A stretch of 64,000 nucleotides of DNA. It comes from Marivirga salinae (GTDB lineage: Bacteria; Bacteroidota; Bacteroidia; Cytophagales; Cyclobacteriaceae). A model generated the notes under the pieces. It had not been told where the DNA came from, ran no database searches, and saw nothing but the letters and a program-made list of their open reading frames with translations. The position numbers and the translations under genes were made by a program. Of the stretch, positions 13,983-22,949 are shown piece by piece; positions within the stretch are counted from its first letter, which is position 1; the number at the start of each line of letters is the position of its first letter. The stretch lies in the NCBI RefSeq assembly GCF_030503855.1, contig NZ_CP129971.1:3844001-3908000 (forward strand), given 5' to 3'.

Positions 13983-14996
13983 TCAATTCAACTCTCCTCT
14001 AAGCTCATAAGCTTTTCGCATTTTGTTTACCATTGCTGTACTCTCTGCAAAGTATAAAGATTGCTGTCCGTCACTCATCGCTTTTTCAGGATCAGGATGT
14101 AATTCATAAATCACTCCATCTGCTCCTGCCATAATTCCTGCCAAGGCAACGGGCTCAACATGCTTCCTTATACCGATTCCATGAGATGGATCGACCACGA
14201 CTGGCAAATGAGTTCTATCCTTTAAAACCGGGATCGCATTAATGTCCAAGGTGTTTCGGGTCATGTTTTCAAAGGTTCTGATTCCTCTTTCACATAAAAT
14301 CAAATCTTCATTACCTCCACTAAAAACATACTCAGCAGAATAAAGCAATTCTTCAATTGTACCGCTCACGCCTCTTTTAATCATCACCGGTTTGTCCACT
14401 TTACCCAGCTCATCCAATAAATTGAAATTCTGTGTGTTTCGGGCGCCTACCTGATAGATATCAATGAAATCATACATTTCCTCCACCTGAGAAACTTGCA
14501 TCACTTCAGTTATGATTTTTATTCCAGCCGCTTTGGCTTTGTCGTGCCACATTTTTAAGCCTTCCATGCCCAAGCCACGAAAGGAATAAGGTGAACTTCT
14601 TGGCTTGTAAACTCCACCACGCATGATTTTCACATCATTCTCCACCAAATGAGCAATTACGGCATCCACTTGGTCTTCATTTTCAATACTACATGGACCC
14701 GCCATGATATTAAAATGGTTCTGTGAAAGGATATCGCCATCACGTAATTTAATTTCAGCTGGATTAACCTTCCATTTCTTTGAAACCAATTGATAATTAT
14801 CAGATACCACATGTACATCCTTAACACCAGATAGATGTCCTATTTCACGGATGTCAATATCTCCTTTCTCCAAGGCTACCAAGTAAAAGCCTTTTTGGGT
14901 TTGTACCTCACTCACAGATTTTGTGAATTTGCCCAAAGAGGATATTAGATCTTCTTTTTGGGTGCTGTTTATGTTTTTTTCTAATTGTAAAATCAT
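13983..14996 (-). CDS. aroF: 3-deoxy-7-phosphoheptulonate synthase
   Basis: 337 residues: an N-terminal ferredoxin-like regulatory domain (about 1-75) and a KDO8P-synthase-like TIM barrel with IMAGPCSIEN, GGVYKPRSSPYSFRG, VGARNTQNF, ILCERGIRTFE and VVDPSHGIGIRKH. It condenses PEP and erythrose 4-phosphate, the first shikimate-pathway step. It is the last gene of the trp operon, which couples precursor supply to tryptophan synthesis. No chorismate mutase domain is present. Confidence 0.93.
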   Translation of the reverse strand: MILQLEKNINSTQKEDLISSLGKFTKSVSEVQTQKGFYLVALEKGDIDIREIGHLSGVKDVHVVSDNYQLVSKKWKVNPAEIKLRDGDILSQNHFNIMAGPCSIENEDQVDAVIAHLVENDVKIMRGGVYKPRSSPYSFRGLGMEGLKMWHDKAKAAGIKIITEVMQVSQVEEMYDFIDIYQVGARNTQNFNLLDELGKVDKPVMIKRGVSGTIEELLYSAEYVFSGGNEDLILCERGIRTFENMTRNTLDINAIPVLKDRTHLPVVVDPSHGIGIRKHVEPVALAGIMAGADGVIYELHPDPEKAMSDGQQSLYFAESTAMVNKMRKAYELRGELN

Positions 14997-15304: not shown

Positions 15305-16078
15305 CTAATTTCTTACCATATTAACAAAACCCTCAATACTGCCTTCCAAATCATCCCCATCCAAAGCCTTAATAAAAGCACTTCCAATTATTCCTCCATC
15401 TGCATATTCATTCACCATGCTTAAGGCTTCATGATCGCTAATACCGAAACCTACCATTCTTGGTGTTTTCAAATTCATGGCTTGAATTCTTTTTAAATAA
15501 TCCAGTCTTTCTGGACTATCACCCCAACTTCCACCCGTGGTGCTGGAACTGCTCACCATATAAATAAATCCTCCTTCTTGAGCATCCACTTCCCGAATTC
15601 TTTCTTCTGAGGTTTTGGGCGTTATCAGAAATACATTTTTCAAATTATACTTTTCAAAAATAGGCTTAAACTGCAATTTAAATTCGTGCATTGGCATATC
15701 GGGCAGAATCAATCCATCCACTCCTACTTCAGCACATTTTTGGCAAAACTTTTCAGTACCGTATTTCAAAACATTATTGCAGTAGCCCATTATAAAAACG
15801 GGCTTATCTGTAATTTTTCTTAAGTCAGCCAGTTGATCAAAAAGGGTGTTCAAATTCATTCCATTATCCAAAGCTTTCATACTGCTCTGCTGTATGGTGG
15901 GTCCATCAGCCAAAGGATCGGAATAGGGCATTCCAATTTCAATCACATCCACATCCGCTTTATCCAATGCTTTTAAAATAGTTTTAGTATCATTCAGATT
16001 AGGATAACCGGCAGTAAAATAAATCGTCAGCTTTTCTTTATCCTTTTGCTGAAATATATGTTCAATTCTGTTTTTCAT
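15305..16078 (-). CDS. trpA: Tryptophan synthase alpha subunit
   Basis: 257-residue TIM barrel with the TrpA signature IEIGMPYSDPLADGPTIQQS carrying the catalytic Glu and Asp, plus FITAGYPN-like LTIYFTAGYPNLNDT and the phosphate loop GFGISDHEAL / GGIIGSAFIKAL. It cleaves indole-3-glycerol phosphate to indole and glyceraldehyde 3-phosphate and passes indole to TrpB. Gene order trpB-trpA is conserved; a 103-nt AT-rich spacer with tandem CTAGAAT units separates them. Confidence 0.96.
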   Translation of the reverse strand: MKNRIEHIFQQKDKEKLTIYFTAGYPNLNDTKTILKALDKADVDVIEIGMPYSDPLADGPTIQQSSMKALDNGMNLNTLFDQLADLRKITDKPVFIMGYCNNVLKYGTEKFCQKCAEVGVDGLILPDMPMHEFKLQFKPIFEKYNLKNVFLITPKTSEERIREVDAQEGGFIYMVSSSSTTGGSWGDSPERLDYLKRIQAMNLKTPRMVGFGISDHEALSMVNEYADGGIIGSAFIKALDGDDLEGSIEGFVNMVRN

Positions 16079-16181
16079 TTTGTGAGAGTCAAGAGTAAAG
16101 AATCTAGAATCTAGAATCTAGAAAAAATGGTCAATTCTAAATCACTAATTCCTAATTAAAAAATTCGTAATTCGTAATTAA

Positions 16182-17363
16182 TCAGTAGTTTCCAAAGTTT
16201 ATGTAAGTCTGCAAGTCTTTATCCCCTCTTCCTGATAAATTTACCACTACTATATCATCCTTTTTAAATTCAAACTGATCTAAAGCAGCTAAAGCATGGG
16301 CAGTTTCTACTGCTGGAATAATGCCTTCCAATTTACTCAATTCAACTCCGGCATCCATGGCTTCTTTATCGGTTACATATTTAAAGATTCCTCTTTTGCT
16401 TGCATATAAATGGGCATGCAAAGGTCCAATTCCAGGATAATCTAATCCAGCTGAAATAGAATAAGGTTCTGTCACTTGTCCATCTTCAGATTGCATCAAT
16501 AAGGTTTTAAATCCATGCAAAACACCCGCGCTTCCTCTGGCAGTAGTGGCGGCTGTTTCACCACTATCTAAACCATGACCGGCTGCTTCCACCGCTACTA
16601 ATTTCACTTTTTCATTATTCAGATAATGATAAAATGCACCAGCTGCATTGCTTCCTCCACCTACACAAGCCACTACATAATCGGGTGCATTGGTGCCTTC
16701 TTGTTCTTGCAATTGCGCCATCATTTCTTCACTTATTACCGACTGGAAACGAGTTACCATATCTGGAAAAGGATGTGGCCCTACAACCGAACCAATGATA
16801 TAATGCGTGTCATCCGGATTATTAATCCAGTAGCGCATGGCCTCATTGGTGGCATCTTTCAAAGTTCTGGAACCAGAAGTAGCTGGAATTACCTCAGCTC
16901 CTAAAATTTTCATGCGCTCCACATTCGGCTTTTGCCTTTCCATATCTACCTCTCCCATGAAAACTTTGCAAGGCAAATCCAATAAAGCACAAGCTGTAGC
17001 AGTAGCCACACCGTGTTGACCAGCTCCCGTTTCGGCAATAATCTTCTTTTTGCCCAATCGCTTGGCTAATAAAGCTTGTCCAATGGCATTATTGATTTTA
17101 TGCGCCCCTGTGTGGTTCAAATCTTCTCTTTTAAGATAGATCTTAGCACCGTGTTTCTCAGAGAGTCTTTTCGCTAAATATAAAGGTGTGGGTCTTCCAA
17201 CATAATCCTTCAATAAAGCCTTGAATTCTTCTATAAATTCTGGCTCTTGTGAAATCTTTAAATAATTATTTTTCAGCTCCTCGATATTCGGATGCAAAAG
17301 CTCTGGAATATAAGCTCCACCAAACTCTCCATAATATCCGTTTTCATCTATTTTTATTTCCAT
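16182..17363 (-). CDS. trpB: Tryptophan synthase beta subunit
   Basis: 393 residues from the ATG at 17363 ([20 protein letters not shown]); a 20-residue extension to 17423 is rejected because it runs through spacer repeats. The PLP lysine is in [14 protein letters not shown], with [10 protein letters not shown], the phosphate-binding GGGSNAAG and the C-terminal NLSGRGDKD. It condenses indole and serine to tryptophan. Length is normal for TrpB1. Confidence 0.97.
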
Positions 17364-17483
17364 GTTTTTTTTAGTTATAAGTTTTAGGTTATAAGTCTTA
17401 AGTATGGAATACCTCACTTCCATCTCCCCACTTCAAACTCCCAAAATTATTTCAAAATTCGATCTGAACTAATTCATAATTTC

Positions 17484-18116
17484 TCATTCATAATTCGCAA
17501 TTACCTTTCGAACTTTCCCCACGTCCTTTAATCCAGGTTCAACTTCCAGCTTACTATTAAAATCCAGTGCATAAAGATTTTTAGACTTCAAATTTTTCAC
17601 CATTTCCATATCTTCTACACCCAAACCACCACTGAGGAAAAATGGCTTTTTTATTTTACTATTTTCTAGCACATCCCAATTAAATTTGACTCCATTTCCC
17701 CCTGGTAACTTCCCTTTAGTATCAAATAAGAAGTAATCTGCATCAGCATATTTGTTTATAATCTTGGTACCAAAATCATCATCCACTGAAAACACTTTAA
17801 TAACTTCCAAACCTTCTGATTTTAAGTATTTTACCATTTCTGGAGCTTCATTTCCATGCAATTGAACAATATCAAAAAAGCCTTTATCAGCATAATTTAA
17901 AATCACTTCCACGTTCTCATTTACAAAAACACCTACTCTTTCTGTTTCACCAAAATTCAGCTTTATAATTTCCTTCATTTGAGCCTCAGATACATATCGA
18001 GCAGATTTTTCATAGAAAATAAAGCCTAAATAATCGGGTTCAAATTCTAATATCTTATGGATGTTTTCCTTATCCCGCATCCCGCAAATCTTTATTTTAA
18101 AGTCTTGTCCTTGCAT
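17484..18116 (-). CDS. trpF: Phosphoribosylanthranilate isomerase
   Basis: 210-residue TIM barrel starting near FKIKICGMRDKENI (catalytic Cys in KICG) with GVFVNENVE, VQLHGNE, YFLFDTKGKLPGGNGVKFNW (catalytic Asp) and FFLSGGL at the phosphate site. It isomerises N-(5-phosphoribosyl)anthranilate to CdRP. It follows trpC by 24 nt; TrpC and TrpF are separate proteins here. Confidence 0.95.
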   Translation of the reverse strand: MQGQDFKIKICGMRDKENIHKILEFEPDYLGFIFYEKSARYVSEAQMKEIIKLNFGETERVGVFVNENVEVILNYADKGFFDIVQLHGNEAPEMVKYLKSEGLEVIKVFSVDDDFGTKIINKYADADYFLFDTKGKLPGGNGVKFNWDVLENSKIKKPFFLSGGLGVEDMEMVKNLKSKNLYALDFNSKLEVEPGLKDVGKVRKVIANYE

Positions 18117-18140
18117 ATTTATAAGGTTTTGATTTAAAAT

Positions 18141-18962
18141 TTATACTTTTTGTTTTCCTTCTTCAATAGCCAACAAATTCTTCACTTGCTGGGAAAAACG
18201 CTGACAAGCTTTGCCTGGCTCACTGCTTTTCATAAATGAAGTTCCAATTAAAAAGCCATCAAATCCTGCATTTTTCATTGCCACTACATCCTCAGGTGTT
18301 TTCAAACCACTTTCCGCAATTTTTGGCACTCCGGCTGGTAATTGATTGGCTAGCTTCTTTGCTACTTCTAAATCTGTATTAAAGCTTTTCAAATCACGAC
18401 TATTGATTCCCACTAAGTCAACATAATTACCATAATGTGAATCTAATTCTTCCTGGTTGTGAACTTCCAATAAAACCTCCATTCCCAATTCATGCGCTAA
18501 TGAAGCCAGATCCTGACATAATGATTTATCGATCATAGCTGCAATCAATAAAATTGCATCGGCTCCATGTGCTTTGGCTTCATAAACTTGATAAGGATCT
18601 AACATAAAATCCTTGCGAAGAATTGGGCAATAGTTGAATTTTCTGGCTACTTCTAAGTCTTTTAAGCTTCCGCCAAATGAAGGTTCATCTGTCAAAACAG
18701 ACAATGCACTAGCCCCACTTTGCATATAGCCAATAGAAACTTCCTCTACTGAAATATGCGAATTAATCTTTCCTTCTGAAGGCGATTTCCTCTTTATCTC
18801 CGCTATAATCCCTGTTTTCGTTTCGTCCATCACATAGGATTTCAAACTGACTGGCTTTGATTTATAATAAAGCTTCTGCTTCAAAAATTCAACTGGGAAT
18901 AACTTTTGACGCTCTGCTACTTCTGCTTTTTTATATTCTGCTATTTCTTGTAGTATATTCAT
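18141..18962 (-). CDS. trpC: Indole-3-glycerol phosphate synthase
   Basis: 273-residue TIM barrel with GIIAEIKRKSPSEGKI (catalytic Lys), LSVLTDEPSFGGS, PILRKDFMLDPYQV (Lys), ADAILLIAAM, LVGINSRDLKSF and KIAESGLKTPEDV. It closes the indole ring from CdRP. Normal length. The 183-nt gap to trpD holds low-complexity pyrimidine-rich repeats. Confidence 0.96.
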   Translation of the reverse strand: MNILQEIAEYKKAEVAERQKLFPVEFLKQKLYYKSKPVSLKSYVMDETKTGIIAEIKRKSPSEGKINSHISVEEVSIGYMQSGASALSVLTDEPSFGGSLKDLEVARKFNYCPILRKDFMLDPYQVYEAKAHGADAILLIAAMIDKSLCQDLASLAHELGMEVLLEVHNQEELDSHYGNYVDLVGINSRDLKSFNTDLEVAKKLANQLPAGVPKIAESGLKTPEDVVAMKNAGFDGFLIGTSFMKSSEPGKACQRFSQQVKNLLAIEEGKQKV

Positions 18963-19086
18963 TTCTTTTATTTAAGTATTAAGTTTTAGGTTTTAAGTAA
19001 TATGTAGAGGTATCAAACTTCTAACTTCATACTTCCCACTTTTATATTTCAACCTTATTTCTAATTATTTCATTTTAAACCTATAT

Positions 19087-19113
19087 CCGGTCTGACCTTC
19101 GGTACTGACCTAA
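19087..19113. repeat. 27-bp dispersed repeat, copy 1
   Basis: Begins CCGGTCTGACC and ends TACTGACCTAA; identical to 20244-20270 and 49703-49729. It can fold as GGTC/GACC plus ACC-TTC-GGT. Flanked by CTTCTAAC/CTTCCCAC-type pyrimidine-rich repeats. Confidence 0.8.
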
Positions 19114-19145
19114 ACTTCCATCTTCCCACTTCTAACTCCTAACTT

Positions 19146-20132
19146 TTACCCCAACAACTTTTTAAAAACCCCATAGGCTTTTCCCGACTCAATGGCTTCT
19201 TTTGCTGCTTCAGTTGCATCTTGCAGGCTATTATATTTTCCTGCTGCTTGTAATGCTAACGCGCTATTGGCATAAACCACAGAATTTTGAGCTTTTGTTC
19301 CTTCTCCTTTTAAAATATCAGTGAAGATTTTAGCTGCTTCTTCTATGGTTTCACCCCCATGAATCTCTTCTGCCTTGATTTGTTCCAAACCAAAATCGGT
19401 TGGTTTTAAGATTTGCTCTCCTCTAGAAGAAAACACTTTGGTTTCTCCTGTTAGAGAACATTCGTCATATCCTTCTAAATCATAAACCACACTGTATTGT
19501 GTATCTGATTCCTGAAATAAGTAAGAATAAATTCGTGCTAATTCATGACTAAAAACTCCTGCCATTTGTTTTTTGGGTAAAGCTGGATTTACTAAAGGAC
19601 CCAACATGTTAAAGAAGGTTTTAACTCCAAGCTCTTTACGAATAGGCCCCACAAATCGCATAGCAGGATGAAATTTTGGTGCATGCAAAAAGCAAATTCC
19701 ACTTTCCTCTAATTGCTTTTCTAATTCAGATTGCTCATTAGTAAATTCATAGCCAAAGTGCTCTAGCAAATTCGAACTTCCGCATTTGGAGGAAACTCCA
19801 TAATTACCGTGCTTCACCACATTTTGTCCGCAAGCTGCTACTACAAATGCAGACATGGTACTTATATTAAAGGTGTTTTTCCCATCTCCGCCAGTACCGC
19901 ATAGATCCATACCATCATAAGTAGATAAATCAATTGGCACTCGTAATTCCATTAATCCATCGCGAAAACCCGCTAATTCCTCCACCGTCACTGGACGAAT
20001 CATGAAGAGGGTCATAAAAGCCGCCAATTCTGAATTATTAAACTCGCCCTGACCAATACGTAAGAAAATAGCCTTAGCTTCTTCCTTAGTCAAAGTATTG
20101 TATTGTGATAATCTATTTATTAGTTCTTTCAT
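19146..20132 (-). CDS. trpD: Anthranilate phosphoribosyltransferase
   Basis: 328 residues with the glycine-rich PRPP loop DLCGTGGDGKNTFNIST, VKHGNYGVSSKCGSSNLLEH and FNMLGPLVNP, the standard TrpD motifs. It transfers phosphoribose from PRPP to anthranilate. TrpD is not fused to TrpG here. The gene is separated from trpG by 177 nt of repeat-rich spacer. Confidence 0.96.
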   Translation of the reverse strand: MKELINRLSQYNTLTKEEAKAIFLRIGQGEFNNSELAAFMTLFMIRPVTVEELAGFRDGLMELRVPIDLSTYDGMDLCGTGGDGKNTFNISTMSAFVVAACGQNVVKHGNYGVSSKCGSSNLLEHFGYEFTNEQSELEKQLEESGICFLHAPKFHPAMRFVGPIRKELGVKTFFNMLGPLVNPALPKKQMAGVFSHELARIYSYLFQESDTQYSVVYDLEGYDECSLTGETKVFSSRGEQILKPTDFGLEQIKAEEIHGGETIEEAAKIFTDILKGEGTKAQNSVVYANSALALQAAGKYNSLQDATEAAKEAIESGKAYGVFKKLLG

Positions 20133-20243
20133 TCTTTTTTAGTCTTAAGTTCTAAGTATTAGGTTATATGTTTTTAGAATCGAGAAAAACTTCATACTTC
20201 GATCTTCCTACTTCTAACTACCTATTCCAATTTAAAGCTAACT

Positions 20244-20270
20244 CCGGTCTGACCTTCGGTACTGACCTAA
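20244..20270. repeat. 27-bp dispersed repeat, copy 2
   Basis: Identical 27 bp to the copies at 19087 and 49703, in the trpG-trpD spacer, again inside CTTCTAAC-type low-complexity sequence. Confidence 0.8.
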
Positions 20271-20309
20271 TCATTCTTCATCCAACATCCTTCTCCCTAC
20301 TTCCCACTT

Positions 20310-20885
20310 CTAACTTCCAACTCCCACTATCCAATTCCTCAACATCCTTCCACCTTCTGGCGTCATCACCGATTCTGGATGAAACTGCAAGCCACAGACA
20401 TCATATTCTTTATGCTGCACTGCCATGATTTGGCCATCATCTGAGCGAGCTAAAATCTCCAAATCTTTAGGGAAATCCACCTCATCTATCACCCAAGAAT
20501 GATATCTTCCTATGCTGATTTCTTTATTTACTCCTTTAAATAAATAATGATCATTTAGAATTGCCTTACTTTGAATACCATGCATAACAGGCTGTATGTT
20601 CAAAAGTTTACCACCAAAAGCTTGCCCTATCGCTTGATGTCCTAGGCAAATACCCAAGATTGGCTTTTCAGAAGCATATCTTTTAATTAAATCCAACATG
20701 ATCCCTGCATTTTCGGGAACACTCGGGCCTGGGGAAAGCAAAATTTTGTCATATTGAGCCACTTCCTCTACTGTAATCTTATCATTTCTGATGACATCAA
20801 TTTCCACATCAAGATTTTGCTGTCTGATGACCTCCACCAAATTGTAAGTGAAGGAATCGTAATTATCGAGTAATAATATCTTCAT
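20310..20885 (-). CDS. trpG: Anthranilate synthase glutamine amidotransferase subunit
   Basis: 191-residue class I glutamine amidotransferase: LLLDNYDSFTYNL, the oxyanion SPGPSVPENAG, the nucleophile in PILGICLGHQAIGQAFGG and the His/Glu of LQFHPESVMTPEG. It supplies ammonia to TrpE; PabA-like dual use with aminodeoxychorismate synthase is possible. It starts 9 nt after the trpE stop, so the two are tightly coupled. Confidence 0.95.
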   Translation of the reverse strand: MKILLLDNYDSFTYNLVEVIRQQNLDVEIDVIRNDKITVEEVAQYDKILLSPGPSVPENAGIMLDLIKRYASEKPILGICLGHQAIGQAFGGKLLNIQPVMHGIQSKAILNDHYLFKGVNKEISIGRYHSWVIDEVDFPKDLEILARSDDGQIMAVQHKEYDVCGLQFHPESVMTPEGGRMLRNWIVGVGS

Positions 20886-20894
20886 TTCCCTTGC

Positions 20895-22307
20895 TTAGTT
20901 TTGGTGTTGATCAAATAAATGTTCTGCTTTTTCCATGGCTTTTCGCAAGGCAAAAAGTTTGTTATGCACTTCTTGTAATTCACTATCAGGGTTAGATAAA
21001 GCCACAATCCCAGCACCGGCTCGGTAGTTTAACTTATTGCCTTTGCTGACAAATGAGCGGATCACAATGGCATGATTTAAGTTTCCGTTCAAGCCAATTA
21101 AGCCAACTGCCCCACCGTATAAGCCTCTCCCAGTAGGTTCATATTTATTGATTAATTCCAAGGCTTTGTATTTTGGTGCTCCGCTCAACGTTCCTGCAGG
21201 AAAAGTGTCTGCCAATAATTTTACGGCTGATTTTTCCGGCACATCTGCTGTAACCTTACTCACTAAGTGAATCACATGAGAATAGAATTGAATTTCTTTG
21301 TAAACCTCCACTTTTACATTCTTTCCATGTTTTGATAAATCATTTCGACCTAAATCTACCAACATGGTATGCTCAGCATTTTCTTTTTCGTCATTCAGTA
21401 ATTCTTCTGCCAATTTAGCATCTGCCTGATCATCTCCACTTCTTCTGTAAGTTCCTGCTATTGGGTTCACATAGGCTTTATTACCTTTCACTCCAACCTG
21501 AGCTTCGGGTGAGGAACCGAATAACTTATAATCGCCATAATCGAAATAAAATAAATAAGGAGATGGATTTAATGATCGTAAAGCACGATATACTGTAAAT
21601 TCATCTCCTTTAAATTGCTGTGAAAAAGCTCGAGAGAGCACCATTTGAAAAACATCTCCTATTTGGGCATGCTCTATTCCTTTATTGATGATTTCTAAGA
21701 ATTCTTCATCCGTCATATTGGTTTCTTCCTCTCCAACTTTCTTGAACTGAAATTGAGGAACCGAACGATTTAAAATCACTTGAACCAAATCATCACGATC
21801 AAAATCATATGTTTTCCCTAGCTGGTGTTCAAAAACATGCAACTCATCTTTAAAATGATCAAAAACTAAAACGAATCTGTAGAAATGATAGCGGAGGAAT
21901 GGAATATCTTCCTGCACTTTTTCAAAATGGATGTCTTCAAAATACTGAACGCCATCGAAACCTGTTGCTCCGAAAAAACCACTTTCTTCAAAATCCTCTT
22001 GAGGAAATAAATCATCTGCCTCAAATTGATTAATGAAGGATTGCAGTTTTGAGGGCAAATCTAATTTACTATCCAGTTTTTCAGTATTGCTAACTCCTTC
22101 AATCTCGGTATAAAAAGAATCCTCTGTAGCTTTTACTTCAGCTATGGACTGCACTCCTATGTATGAAAAACTATTTCTTCTAGTATGATAGTCAGAGCTT
22201 TCCATTAAGAATGTATGAGGAAATTGATCCCTCAATCTGAGGTAAAGCGCTACCGGAGTGAATGAATCTGCCGGAAGTGTAATGTGTTGCTTTTTGATTT
22301 TGGTCAT
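20895..22307 (-). CDS. trpE: Anthranilate synthase component I
   Basis: 470 residues. The N-terminal regulatory part carries FLMESSDYH, equivalent to the Trp-feedback LLES site, and NSFSYIGV. The chorismate-binding core has FQMVLSRAFSQQF, PYLFYFDYG, GSSPEA, PIAGTYRRS, LVDLGRNDLSKHG, TFPAGTLSGAPKYKALELI and the IRSFV/YRAGAGIV end. It makes anthranilate from chorismate and TrpG-derived ammonia. It is the first structural gene of the operon, behind the tandem attenuator at 22438-22687. Confidence 0.96.
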   Translation of the reverse strand: MTKIKKQHITLPADSFTPVALYLRLRDQFPHTFLMESSDYHTRRNSFSYIGVQSIAEVKATEDSFYTEIEGVSNTEKLDSKLDLPSKLQSFINQFEADDLFPQEDFEESGFFGATGFDGVQYFEDIHFEKVQEDIPFLRYHFYRFVLVFDHFKDELHVFEHQLGKTYDFDRDDLVQVILNRSVPQFQFKKVGEEETNMTDEEFLEIINKGIEHAQIGDVFQMVLSRAFSQQFKGDEFTVYRALRSLNPSPYLFYFDYGDYKLFGSSPEAQVGVKGNKAYVNPIAGTYRRSGDDQADAKLAEELLNDEKENAEHTMLVDLGRNDLSKHGKNVKVEVYKEIQFYSHVIHLVSKVTADVPEKSAVKLLADTFPAGTLSGAPKYKALELINKYEPTGRGLYGGAVGLIGLNGNLNHAIVIRSFVSKGNKLNYRAGAGIVALSNPDSELQEVHNKLFALRKAMEKAEHLFDQHQN

Positions 22308-22334
22308 CTTTTAATTCAATTAATTTTATTTCAG

Positions 22335-22420
22335 AACCTGTCAGGTTTCTCCTAAACAGATTTAATGCTAATTTTTCACTTTTTGATTCCTAATGTTCCC
22401 CATTAAACCTGACAGGTTTA
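22335..22420. repeat. Pair of AACCTGWCAGGTT palindromes
   Basis: 22335-22347 (AACCTGTCAGGTT) and 22404-22420 (TAAACCTGACAGGTTTA) are near-identical palindromes 69 nt apart between the second attenuator hairpin and the trpE ATG. They may be the ends of an 86-bp element or protein-binding sites. Confidence 0.7.
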
Positions 22421-22437
22421 GTCAGAAAACAACTCAT

Positions 22438-22473
22438 AAAAAAAGGCTTACCGAATGATCGGTAAGCCTTTTT
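22438..22473 (-). terminator. trp attenuator terminator 2
   Basis: On the minus strand AAAAGGCTTACCGA / TCGGTAAGCCTTTT is a perfect 14-bp stem with a TCAT loop, followed by a run of seven U. It lies after leader peptide 2 and before trpE. Its loop and 3' arm (22450-22458) can instead pair with 22501-22509 at the leader peptide stop codon. Confidence 0.85.
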
Positions 22474-22500
22474 GTTCGCAATTAAGCATGGCATATCCCT

Positions 22501-22566
22501 TCATCCGGTTTTAGATGTTTTCTTGTGCCACCACCATGCGTTATTTAATTTATTGATCATTTTCAT
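22501..22566 (-). CDS. trp leader peptide 2 (three consecutive Trp codons)
   Basis: A 21-residue ORF starting MKMINKLNNAWWWHKK, with TGG TGG TGG at codons 11-13, ending at TGA (22501). Three adjacent Trp codons in a short ORF directly before a U-tailed hairpin and trpE is the classic attenuator design. The last three codons (ACC GGA TGA) are the left arm of a 9-bp antiterminator with 22450-22458; it starts 18 nt after the last Trp codon, so a stalled ribosome leaves it free while one at the stop codon covers it. Too short for routine gene calling. Confidence 0.85.
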   Translation of the reverse strand: MKMINKLNNAWWWHKKTSKTG

Positions 22567-22578
22567 TAATTCTAAGTC

Positions 22579-22609
22579 AAAAAAAAACCTCACTTGACAG
22601 CGAGGTTTT
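22579..22609 (-). terminator. trp attenuator terminator 1
   Basis: On the minus strand AAAACCTCGC / GTGAGGTTTT forms a 10-bp stem (one G-U) with a 6-nt loop and a run of nine U. It lies between leader peptide 1 and leader peptide 2. GCTGTC in its 5' arm and loop (22596-22601) is complementary to GACAGC at 22629-22634 just after the leader 1 stop. Confidence 0.82.
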
Positions 22610-22636
22610 GAATATTTTATATACCAATGCTGTCTT

Positions 22637-22687
22637 CTAACTATTAGAAGTCCACCACCAGTTGATATTTGTATTTCTGTTTTGCAT
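22637..22687 (-). CDS. trp leader peptide 1 (three consecutive Trp codons)
   Basis: A 16-residue ORF, MQNRNTNINWWWTSNS, with TGG TGG TGG at codons 10-12 and stop TAG at 22637. It is followed at once by GACAGC, the antiterminator arm, 17 nt after the last Trp codon, the same geometry as in leader 2. CTTCTAA-TAG-TTAGAAG can also form a 7-bp hairpin over the last codons. A promoter element ends 5 nt before its ATG, so the mRNA may be nearly leaderless. Confidence 0.85.
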   Translation of the reverse strand: MQNRNTNINWWWTSNS

Positions 22688-22692
22688 TTGCA

Positions 22693-22723
22693 CAAATGTA
22701 AACGGCAAATTCAAATAAGCAAA
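22693..22723 (-). promoter_or_regulatory. trp operon promoter
   Basis: On the minus strand TTTG (22723-22720), a 19-nt spacer and TACATTTG (22700-22693) match the Bacteroidota TTTG-N19-TAnnTTTG consensus exactly. It starts right after the THX stop codon and ends 5 nt before leader peptide 1. Confidence 0.75.
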
Positions 22724-22724
22724 A

Positions 22725-22949
22725 TTATTTATCAGCTTTTTCTGTTTTTTTCTTTGCAGTTGTTTTTTTAGCTGTAGAAGTCTTCTTAGCAGTACTTGCC
22801 TTTTTATCAGGTTCAGCCTTTTTTTCTGCTTTTGGTTTTGCAGTTGTAGTTGCTGAATTATCAGAAGAGGCATTTGGTCTTGGCCTTGTATTTCCATAAC
22901 TCCCTTTCCAGATTTTACCCTTTTTCGATTTTTTATCTCCTTTTCCCAT
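22725..22949 (-). CDS. 30S ribosomal protein THX-like
   Basis: 74 residues. The first 25 (MGKGDKKSKKGKIWKGSYGN, then TRPRPN) match ribosomal protein THX, a small basic protein of the 30S head. The remaining 45 residues are a low-complexity Lys/Ala/Thr tail (AKKTSTAKKTTAKKK), like histone-H1-type tails that often extend Bacteroidota proteins of this family. Trp operon promoter follows without a separate terminator. Confidence 0.82.
   Translation of the reverse strand: MGKGDKKSKKGKIWKGSYGNTRPRPNASSDNSATTTAKPKAEKKAEPDKKASTAKKTSTAKKTTAKKKTEKADK

Follow-up and report, generated by a model that had tools for sequence, protein, structure and literature searches.

The trp leader of Marivirga very probably contains two ribosome-mediated tryptophan attenuators in series behind one promoter

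Two complete ribosome-mediated Trp attenuators, placed one after the other downstream of a single promoter, very probably make up the 5′ leader of the trp operon in Marivirga. This reading draws on the anatomy of the leader, its conservation, the complementarity of candidate antiterminator strands to their own hairpins over a large set of leaders, the switching seen in computed folds, and the lack of a promoter box before leader 2. The serial pair is present in every Marivirga genome with trpE that we examined and recurs elsewhere in the phylum.

We analyzed a 64,000-nt stretch (the window) of the 4.49-Mb, single-contig genome of Marivirga salinae; all leader features lie on its minus strand and are described 5′ to 3′. 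As read from the sequence, their order is promoter, leader ORF 1, terminator 1, leader ORF 2, terminator 2, and trpE. The promoter (22693..22723), which we take to follow the Bacteroidota-type consensus, has a −33 box TTTG (22723-22720), a 19-nt spacer, and a −7 box TACATTTG (22700-22693). Leader peptide 1, MQNRNTNINWWWTSNS (16 aa, 22637..22687), runs from an ATG at 22687 to a TAG stop codon ending at 22637 and includes three TGG codons (22652..22660). Candidate antiterminator strand 1 (GACAGC plus GGT, 22623..22634) would pair within 22606-22596, in the loop and 5′ arm of terminator 1; its GACAGC (22634-22629) is complementary to GCTGTC (22601-22596). Intrinsic terminator 1, with its U tract, spans 22579..22609 and has a predicted fold of −14.7 kcal/mol. 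Leader peptide 2, MKMINKLNNAWWWHKKTSKTG (21 aa, 22501..22566), starts at an ATG at 22566 or 22560, ends with a TGA stop codon ending at 22501, and likewise carries three TGG codons (22528..22536). Candidate antiterminator strand 2 (22490..22509) has a core, ACCGGATGA (22509-22501), that includes the stop codon and is complementary to TCATTCGGT (22458-22450) in the loop and 3′ arm of terminator 2, and its bases beyond the core, to 22490, pair with the 5′ arm of the same hairpin. Intrinsic terminator 2, also with a U tract, spans 22438..22473 and has a predicted fold of about −23 kcal/mol. The complementary stretches begin 17 nt (module 1) and 18 nt (module 2) past the last Trp codon. As in ribosome-mediated amino-acid attenuators, a leader ORF with consecutive regulatory codons thus precedes the matching biosynthetic operon, here twice, and in both modules an intrinsic terminator separates the leader ORF from the structural gene. 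An earlier note on this DNA had described a single TTTG-N19-TACATTTG promoter ahead of both ORFs, two WWW ORFs of 16 and 21 residues before trpE, a U-tailed hairpin after each ORF (the terminators at 22609-22579 and 22473-22438), and complementarity starting 17-18 nt after the last Trp codon in both modules; the sequence confirms these elements and their positions.

Both modules, each with its WWW ORF and terminator, were found in all nine Marivirga genomes that have a trpE match, across which TrpE identity to the window is 75-96%; a tenth Marivirga genome, 86% complete, had no trpE match at E≤1e-100. The earlier note had suggested checking both WWW ORFs across related genomes and had named the loss of an ORF or hairpin in close relatives as evidence against its reading, and no such loss occurred in the nine genomes. 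In the nine-sequence alignment, the TGG columns of both leaders were invariant and adjacent leader residues varied. For the two terminators combined, both-side changes occurred at 6/24 base pairs, a number reached by 0/500 shuffles, and the covariation score of 0.213 was also reached by 0/500 shuffles; a measure of further pair types showed no excess, as 186/500 shuffles reached its value. Terminator 1 had both-side changes at 2/11 pairs, with 91.6% of cells paired, and terminator 2 formed 13/13 pairs in 9/9 genomes, with both-side changes at four of them. The invariance of both sets of Trp codons amid varying residues, the retention of pairing in both terminators through both-side changes, and the presence of both modules in all nine genomes make it improbable that regulation rests with one module and that the other is a remnant or a terminator that happens to follow a WWW ORF, a possibility to which the survey of relatives and the pairing test described below lend some support.

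The survey of relatives comprised 217 trpE upstream regions (9 from Marivirga, 41 from other members of the family or order, 80 named-genome loci, 84 further regions from the family, and 3 found by pattern), of which 214 remained after three exact duplicates were dropped. The trpE-like stretches in named genomes numbered at least 587, of which the best 80 were used, and these included two duplicate Marivirga regions; two trpE-level matches were left out (G049, and G117, whose contig lacks upstream DNA). A module was scored as a short ORF with adjacent Trp codons, followed within 100 nt by a terminator. The scan found two modules in 19 regions, one in 169, and none in 26. In the chance-control search, with ATG starts only, at least one module occurred in 187/214 real regions and two in 19/214, and 1,070 dinucleotide shuffles made from the 214 regions contained zero modules with a WW ORF and terminator. 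When 17 other residue pairs were put through the same scan, one module was found in at most 55/214 regions (NN) and two in at most 5/214 (KK). Collapsing regions that share 100 bases left 202 groups (18 tandem, 159 single, 25 none), with a WW(W) leader and terminator ahead of trpE in 177/202. Outside Marivirga, 192 non-redundant regions included 159 with a single module, 8 with a tandem, and 25 with none detected; this set excludes the L081 and L082 groups, known through the pattern search alone, and retains L083, whose genome (G110) was sampled with the family as well. A single attenuator is the rule among the relatives sampled, and the fact that one module suffices for most of them (159/192) is a point in favor of only one module regulating in the tandem leaders.

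Some regions in the survey fell outside the module definition. One region counted as having no module through a wrong slice (L028) carries a WWW leader, with no terminator by the filter, and six more regions in the same class have a WW(W) ORF and no terminator by the filter (L035, L097, L102, L126, L154, and L202). Regions L209 and L218 have two terminator-like hairpins before trpE, ~490 and 156 nt from the region end, with no WW ORF found, and may use a different sensor. A Cobalamin riboswitch (L141:1396-1592, 101.8 bits) lies in the flanking DNA of a trpE locus from Tenacibaculum. A WWW-gap-WWW pattern search of 390 family genomes gave matches in 67, and a reversed control pattern matched some genomes too. 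Inspection led us to accept the matches in the nine Marivirga genomes and in G020, G255, G185, and G110 as trp leaders and to reject the match in G108; the remaining family matches, judged from their first 80 bases, are coding or repeat DNA. A stricter pattern matched in four of 395 phylum genomes, and the window's own match was the sole attenuator, again judged from 80 bases.

For 207 modules in 188 leaders, we scored antiterminator pairing between each hairpin and the RNA ahead of it, beginning 9 nt past the last Trp codon and ending at the terminator. Dinucleotide-shuffled spacers served as the null, and the controls were stretches of the same length taken before the Trp codons or after the terminator. 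Among single modules (n=169), 51.5% reached p≤0.05, compared to 4.1% and 3.0% for the two control stretches. The corresponding counts in Marivirga were 7/9 for module 1 and 6/9 for module 2, with 0/9 in each of four control tests, and those in the 10 other tandems were 3/10 for distal and 4/10 for proximal modules, with 0 or 1/10 in the controls. When 80 foreign hairpins were swapped in, 35.7% of the 207 modules ranked in the best 5%. The pairing stretch began at a median of ~15 nt past the last Trp codon and included the terminator loop in 202/207 modules. Within tandem leaders, strand 1 preferred its own hairpin in 16/19 cases (it paired better with hairpin 2 in L008, L173, and L244) and strand 2 did so in 19/19, a score that is flattered because hairpin 2 is often the longer. 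The GGATG/CATCC core of strand 2 was paired in 9/9 Marivirga genomes, with one pair being G-U in two of them. Antiterminator columns in Marivirga showed no covariation, with a single both-side pair (reached by 49/500 shuffles) and a covariation score reached by 285/500 shuffles.

Eighteen of the 38 modules in tandem leaders failed to reach p≤0.05 in the shuffle test, and this failure rate also favors the alternative in which one module of each pair regulates. The clearest misses were module 1 of L008 (p=0.30), modules 1 and 2 of L009 (0.39 and 0.59), the distal module of L173 (0.80), and the proximal module of L082 (0.61); with swapped hairpins, L008 module 1 (0.925) and the L173 distal module (0.90) ranked below most. 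By eye, module 1 of L008 and of L009 seems to keep a shifted-register complement (GCAGT/ACTGC and GGCGG/CCGCC, respectively), which we do not count as evidence because of the shuffle-test values for these modules.

We computed folds with the RNA masked by a ribosome footprint that ended 12 nt beyond the last Trp codon (stalled) or 10 nt beyond the stop codon. When the transcript ended 4 nt before completion of the terminator (4 nt short), terminator probability averaged 0.51 over 207 modules in the stalled state, 0.93 with the ribosome at the stop codon, and 0.87 in the stalled state with a shuffled spacer; the probability dropped by >0.5 in 94/207 modules. At 6 nt short (203 modules), these means were 0.30, 0.86, and 0.70, respectively. 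In the window, both antiterminators formed with a probability of 0.96-0.98 when the ribosome was at WWW and the terminator was incomplete, and the terminator formed early when the ribosome was at the stop codon, with about half of the antiterminator pairing in module 1 lasting until the terminator formed. Once the terminator was complete, equilibrium favored it even with a stalled ribosome, and the predicted switch must therefore be kinetic, as it is in classical attenuation. Across Marivirga, terminator probability for module 2 at 4 nt short hardly fell (0.92 vs. 0.97), with a drop of >0.5 in 0/9 genomes and in 4/9 for module 1. Such drops occurred in 8/9 (module 1) and 4/9 (module 2) at 6 nt short and in 4/5 (module 1) and 7/9 (module 2) at 8 nt short; L003 module 1 and L007 module 2 showed no switching at 4, 6, or 8 nt short. 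The proposal in the earlier note that the antiterminator strand is exposed by a stalled ribosome and hidden by one at the stop codon thus agrees statistically with pairing and masked folding: the computed folds contain such a competing strand in the window and in the set overall, not in every module.

In 102/188 first modules and in 0/19 second modules, a −7 box of the form TAnnTTTG preceded an in-frame leader ATG by 3-15 nt, and by this type of box there is no promoter between the modules. The gates are therefore probably in series, with the second relying on the first promoter. This difference within 15 nt of the ATG, together with the start of leader 2 in Marivirga ~12-22 nt past the U tract (by eye), argues strongly against a pair of alternative promoters that each serve a separate attenuator, such that a transcript meets the proximal gate only or mainly one gate. 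We regard that arrangement as very improbable, even with the support that it receives from two genomes of one genus (g101), in which TGAATTTG (L082) and TTAATTTG (L083), before leader 2, match the −7 box at 7/8 positions by eye. These near-boxes may be what is left of a promoter, as would be expected if promoter and attenuator had been duplicated in that genus as one unit; the similarity test described below does not support duplication.

If the second gate relies on the first promoter, then leader 2 is presumably initiated internally. The ATG of leader 1 lies 5 nt after the −7 box and is therefore near the presumed 5′ end of the transcript, and, judged by this spacing, leader 1 is probably close to leaderless. 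Serial gates that differ in this way need not respond identically: each might have its own threshold, or the states that they sense might differ in part, and the response would then have two stages rather than being simply squared. Consistent with such inequality, the distal terminator was weaker than the proximal one in 15/19 tandems (means of −16.2 vs. −21.0, with −19.2 for single modules), and in 4/10 tandems outside Marivirga, a distal leader with WW is combined with a proximal leader with WWW. Both Marivirga leaders have three Trp codons, however, and the distances from the last Trp codon to the antiterminator are nearly equal in the window (17 and 18 nt), and we consider a two-stage response possible but unlikely.

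The tandems found ahead of trpE outside Marivirga are those of L026, L041, L089, L165, L173, L233, L244, L081, L082, and L083. On a TrpE tree of 62 chosen sequences that includes all 19 tandems, the tandem label requires 8 changes, at least 5 of which are forced by well-supported branches; the places of L026 and L244 are unsure because of long branches. The 8 changes indicate that tandems were gained or lost repeatedly. Recent tandem duplication was rejected as the origin of the modules, as modules from the same genome were no more alike than foreign ones in 19 pairs, and the best of these pairs was equaled or beaten by 30/100 foreign modules. The sole other operon that we checked in Marivirga was at hisG, where we saw no tandem. 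In 9/9 Marivirga genomes with this gene, hisG is preceded by a conserved leader ORF rich in His (L273-L281; for example, MNNTRLHISSMLNASQAFHAVHVFHHSSF in L281), the scan found no terminator after it in these nine genomes, and L280 has an extra short HH ORF far upstream of hisG.

The leader is followed on the minus strand by a run of trp genes identified by ORFs and Pfam matches. The first structural gene, trpE (20895..22307; Chorismate_bind and Anth_synt_I_N), encodes anthranilate synthase component I, and the rest of the run (15305..20885) consists of trpG (20885-20310), trpD (20132-19146), trpC (18962-18141), trpF (18116-17484), trpB (17423-16182), and trpA (16078-15305). A DAHP synthase gene (13983-14996) on the same strand, ~300 nt beyond trpA, may be part of the operon. 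Upstream, a minus-strand gene for a relative of ribosomal protein Thx with a Lys/Ala-rich tail (PF17070, 22725-22949) ends 1 nt ahead of the −33 box of the trp promoter, and we noticed no terminator between them. Between terminator 2 and trpE, there are two palindromes, AACCTG(T/A)CAGGTT, at 22335-22347 and 22406-22418, 58 nt apart. The exact motif has only 5 sites in the genome, two of them in the trp leader, and intact or partial copies occur in 4/9 Marivirga leaders (L001, L003, L004, and L007) and are absent from L002, L005, L006, L008, and L009. A search for the Trp repressor domain found no match in the window genome; the same search was positive in 2/14 control genomes (E. coli and B. 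subtilis). The second gate could supply regulatory range that is given elsewhere by a repressor.

We propose the following mechanism for two serial gates. When charged tRNA-Trp is ample, a ribosome would reach the stop codon of leader 1 and hide the antiterminator strand, terminator 1 would fold, and RNA polymerase would halt. When Trp is scarce, a ribosome would stall at WWW and leave the strand ~17 nt downstream free to pair with the emerging loop region of the terminator, and polymerase would read through. Leader 2 would repeat this test, and another ribosome would need to stall at the second WWW. If the gates are independent, expression of trpE would be the product of two read-through probabilities, and therefore leakage would be multiplied down and the logarithmic gain would be the sum of the two gains. 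Multiplied repression and a sharpened response would thus be an arithmetic consequence of independence; for the cell, stalling, termination, independence of the gates, and multiplication are what we infer. A broader model, which we offer tentatively and consider slightly less probable than an even chance, is that Bacteroidota repeatedly evolved a same-signal, two-gate cascade in place of a Trp repressor plus attenuator, in which a near-leaderless first gate with a weaker terminator is combined with a stronger, internally initiated second gate, so that leakage is low and the Trp response steeper than any one three-Trp leader alone can achieve.

Ribosome-mediated attenuation is a textbook one-gate switch. 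Stacking gates for the same signal would be a simple way around the limit of one gate, because the logarithmic gains of independent serial gates add; logarithmic gain is used here as defined in part of a modeling study (PMC1183508). The natural pair is conserved in Marivirga and absent from most relatives sampled, and it thus provides matched leaders with one gate and with two, on which direct measurement could show what stacking costs and what it gains. Retention of the tandem in every checkable Marivirga relative and in some other genera suggests that cells stack simple RNA switches for tighter control.

The nearest named family is the Bacteroid-trp leader RNA (Rfam RF01692), which also lies before Bacteroidota trp genes; the motif appears in Table 1 of PMC2864571, and an excerpt of PMC6414381 places it ahead of the Flavobacterium psychrophilum trp operon. 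The excerpts of these two papers that describe RF01692 do not mention two copies per leader. Each window module gave a weak match over the full length of the model (29.8 and 29.0 bits; E-values of 0.25 and 0.34), at scores under the curated 49 bits and with 14 matches to other families having similar E-values, and there was no gathering match to RF01692 within the window. The threshold was reached in 6/16 tested loci with such leaders (L125, L129, L152, L155, L159, and L161) and by none of the three Marivirga loci tested.

Single trp attenuators are well known, as the earlier note rightly held. The E. coli trp operon has a ribosome-mediated attenuator with one gate plus the Trp repressor, whereas M. 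salinae has two gates and no match to the TrpR domain; shared features are a leader ORF with adjacent Trp codons, a terminator, and a competing antiterminator. The E. coli attenuator is described in part of PMC3641672, which also presents the tandem attenuators of Salmonella mgtCBR, with two short ORFs that respond to different signals, ATP and proline, and contrasts them with the metE leader, which has two terminators. According to that account, mgtCBR resembles the Marivirga leader in having two short ORFs that both act through coupled translation and differs in having two signals, whereas the Marivirga leader appears to combine one signal with two terminators, as both of its ORFs carry WWW by sequence. 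In the rimP leader, an excerpt of PMC2965389 describes a second terminator in tandem, with one of the two having a clear potential antiterminator; two terminators thus lie serially in one leader, as in Marivirga, but this excerpt gives no amino-acid leader peptide system for rimP.

A search with the Rfam T-box models gave no gathering match in the window and, in 22250-22800, no match at E≤1. T-boxes make direct contact with tRNA and have no leader peptide, whereas each Marivirga module has one. Tandem T-boxes nevertheless occur before trp genes, with three in Streptococcus macedonicus, as reported in part of PMC12452182, and these stacked sensors presumably follow the same logic. In the open-access literature, we found no description of two leader-peptide attenuators that lie in series and respond to the same signal, and the excerpts of PMC12421871 and PMC11225308 contain nothing on this point. 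The serial, same-signal pair of ribosome-mediated Trp attenuators is thus a variant of a known switch, with precedents for stacking in other mechanisms, namely tandem trp T-boxes and mgtCBR.
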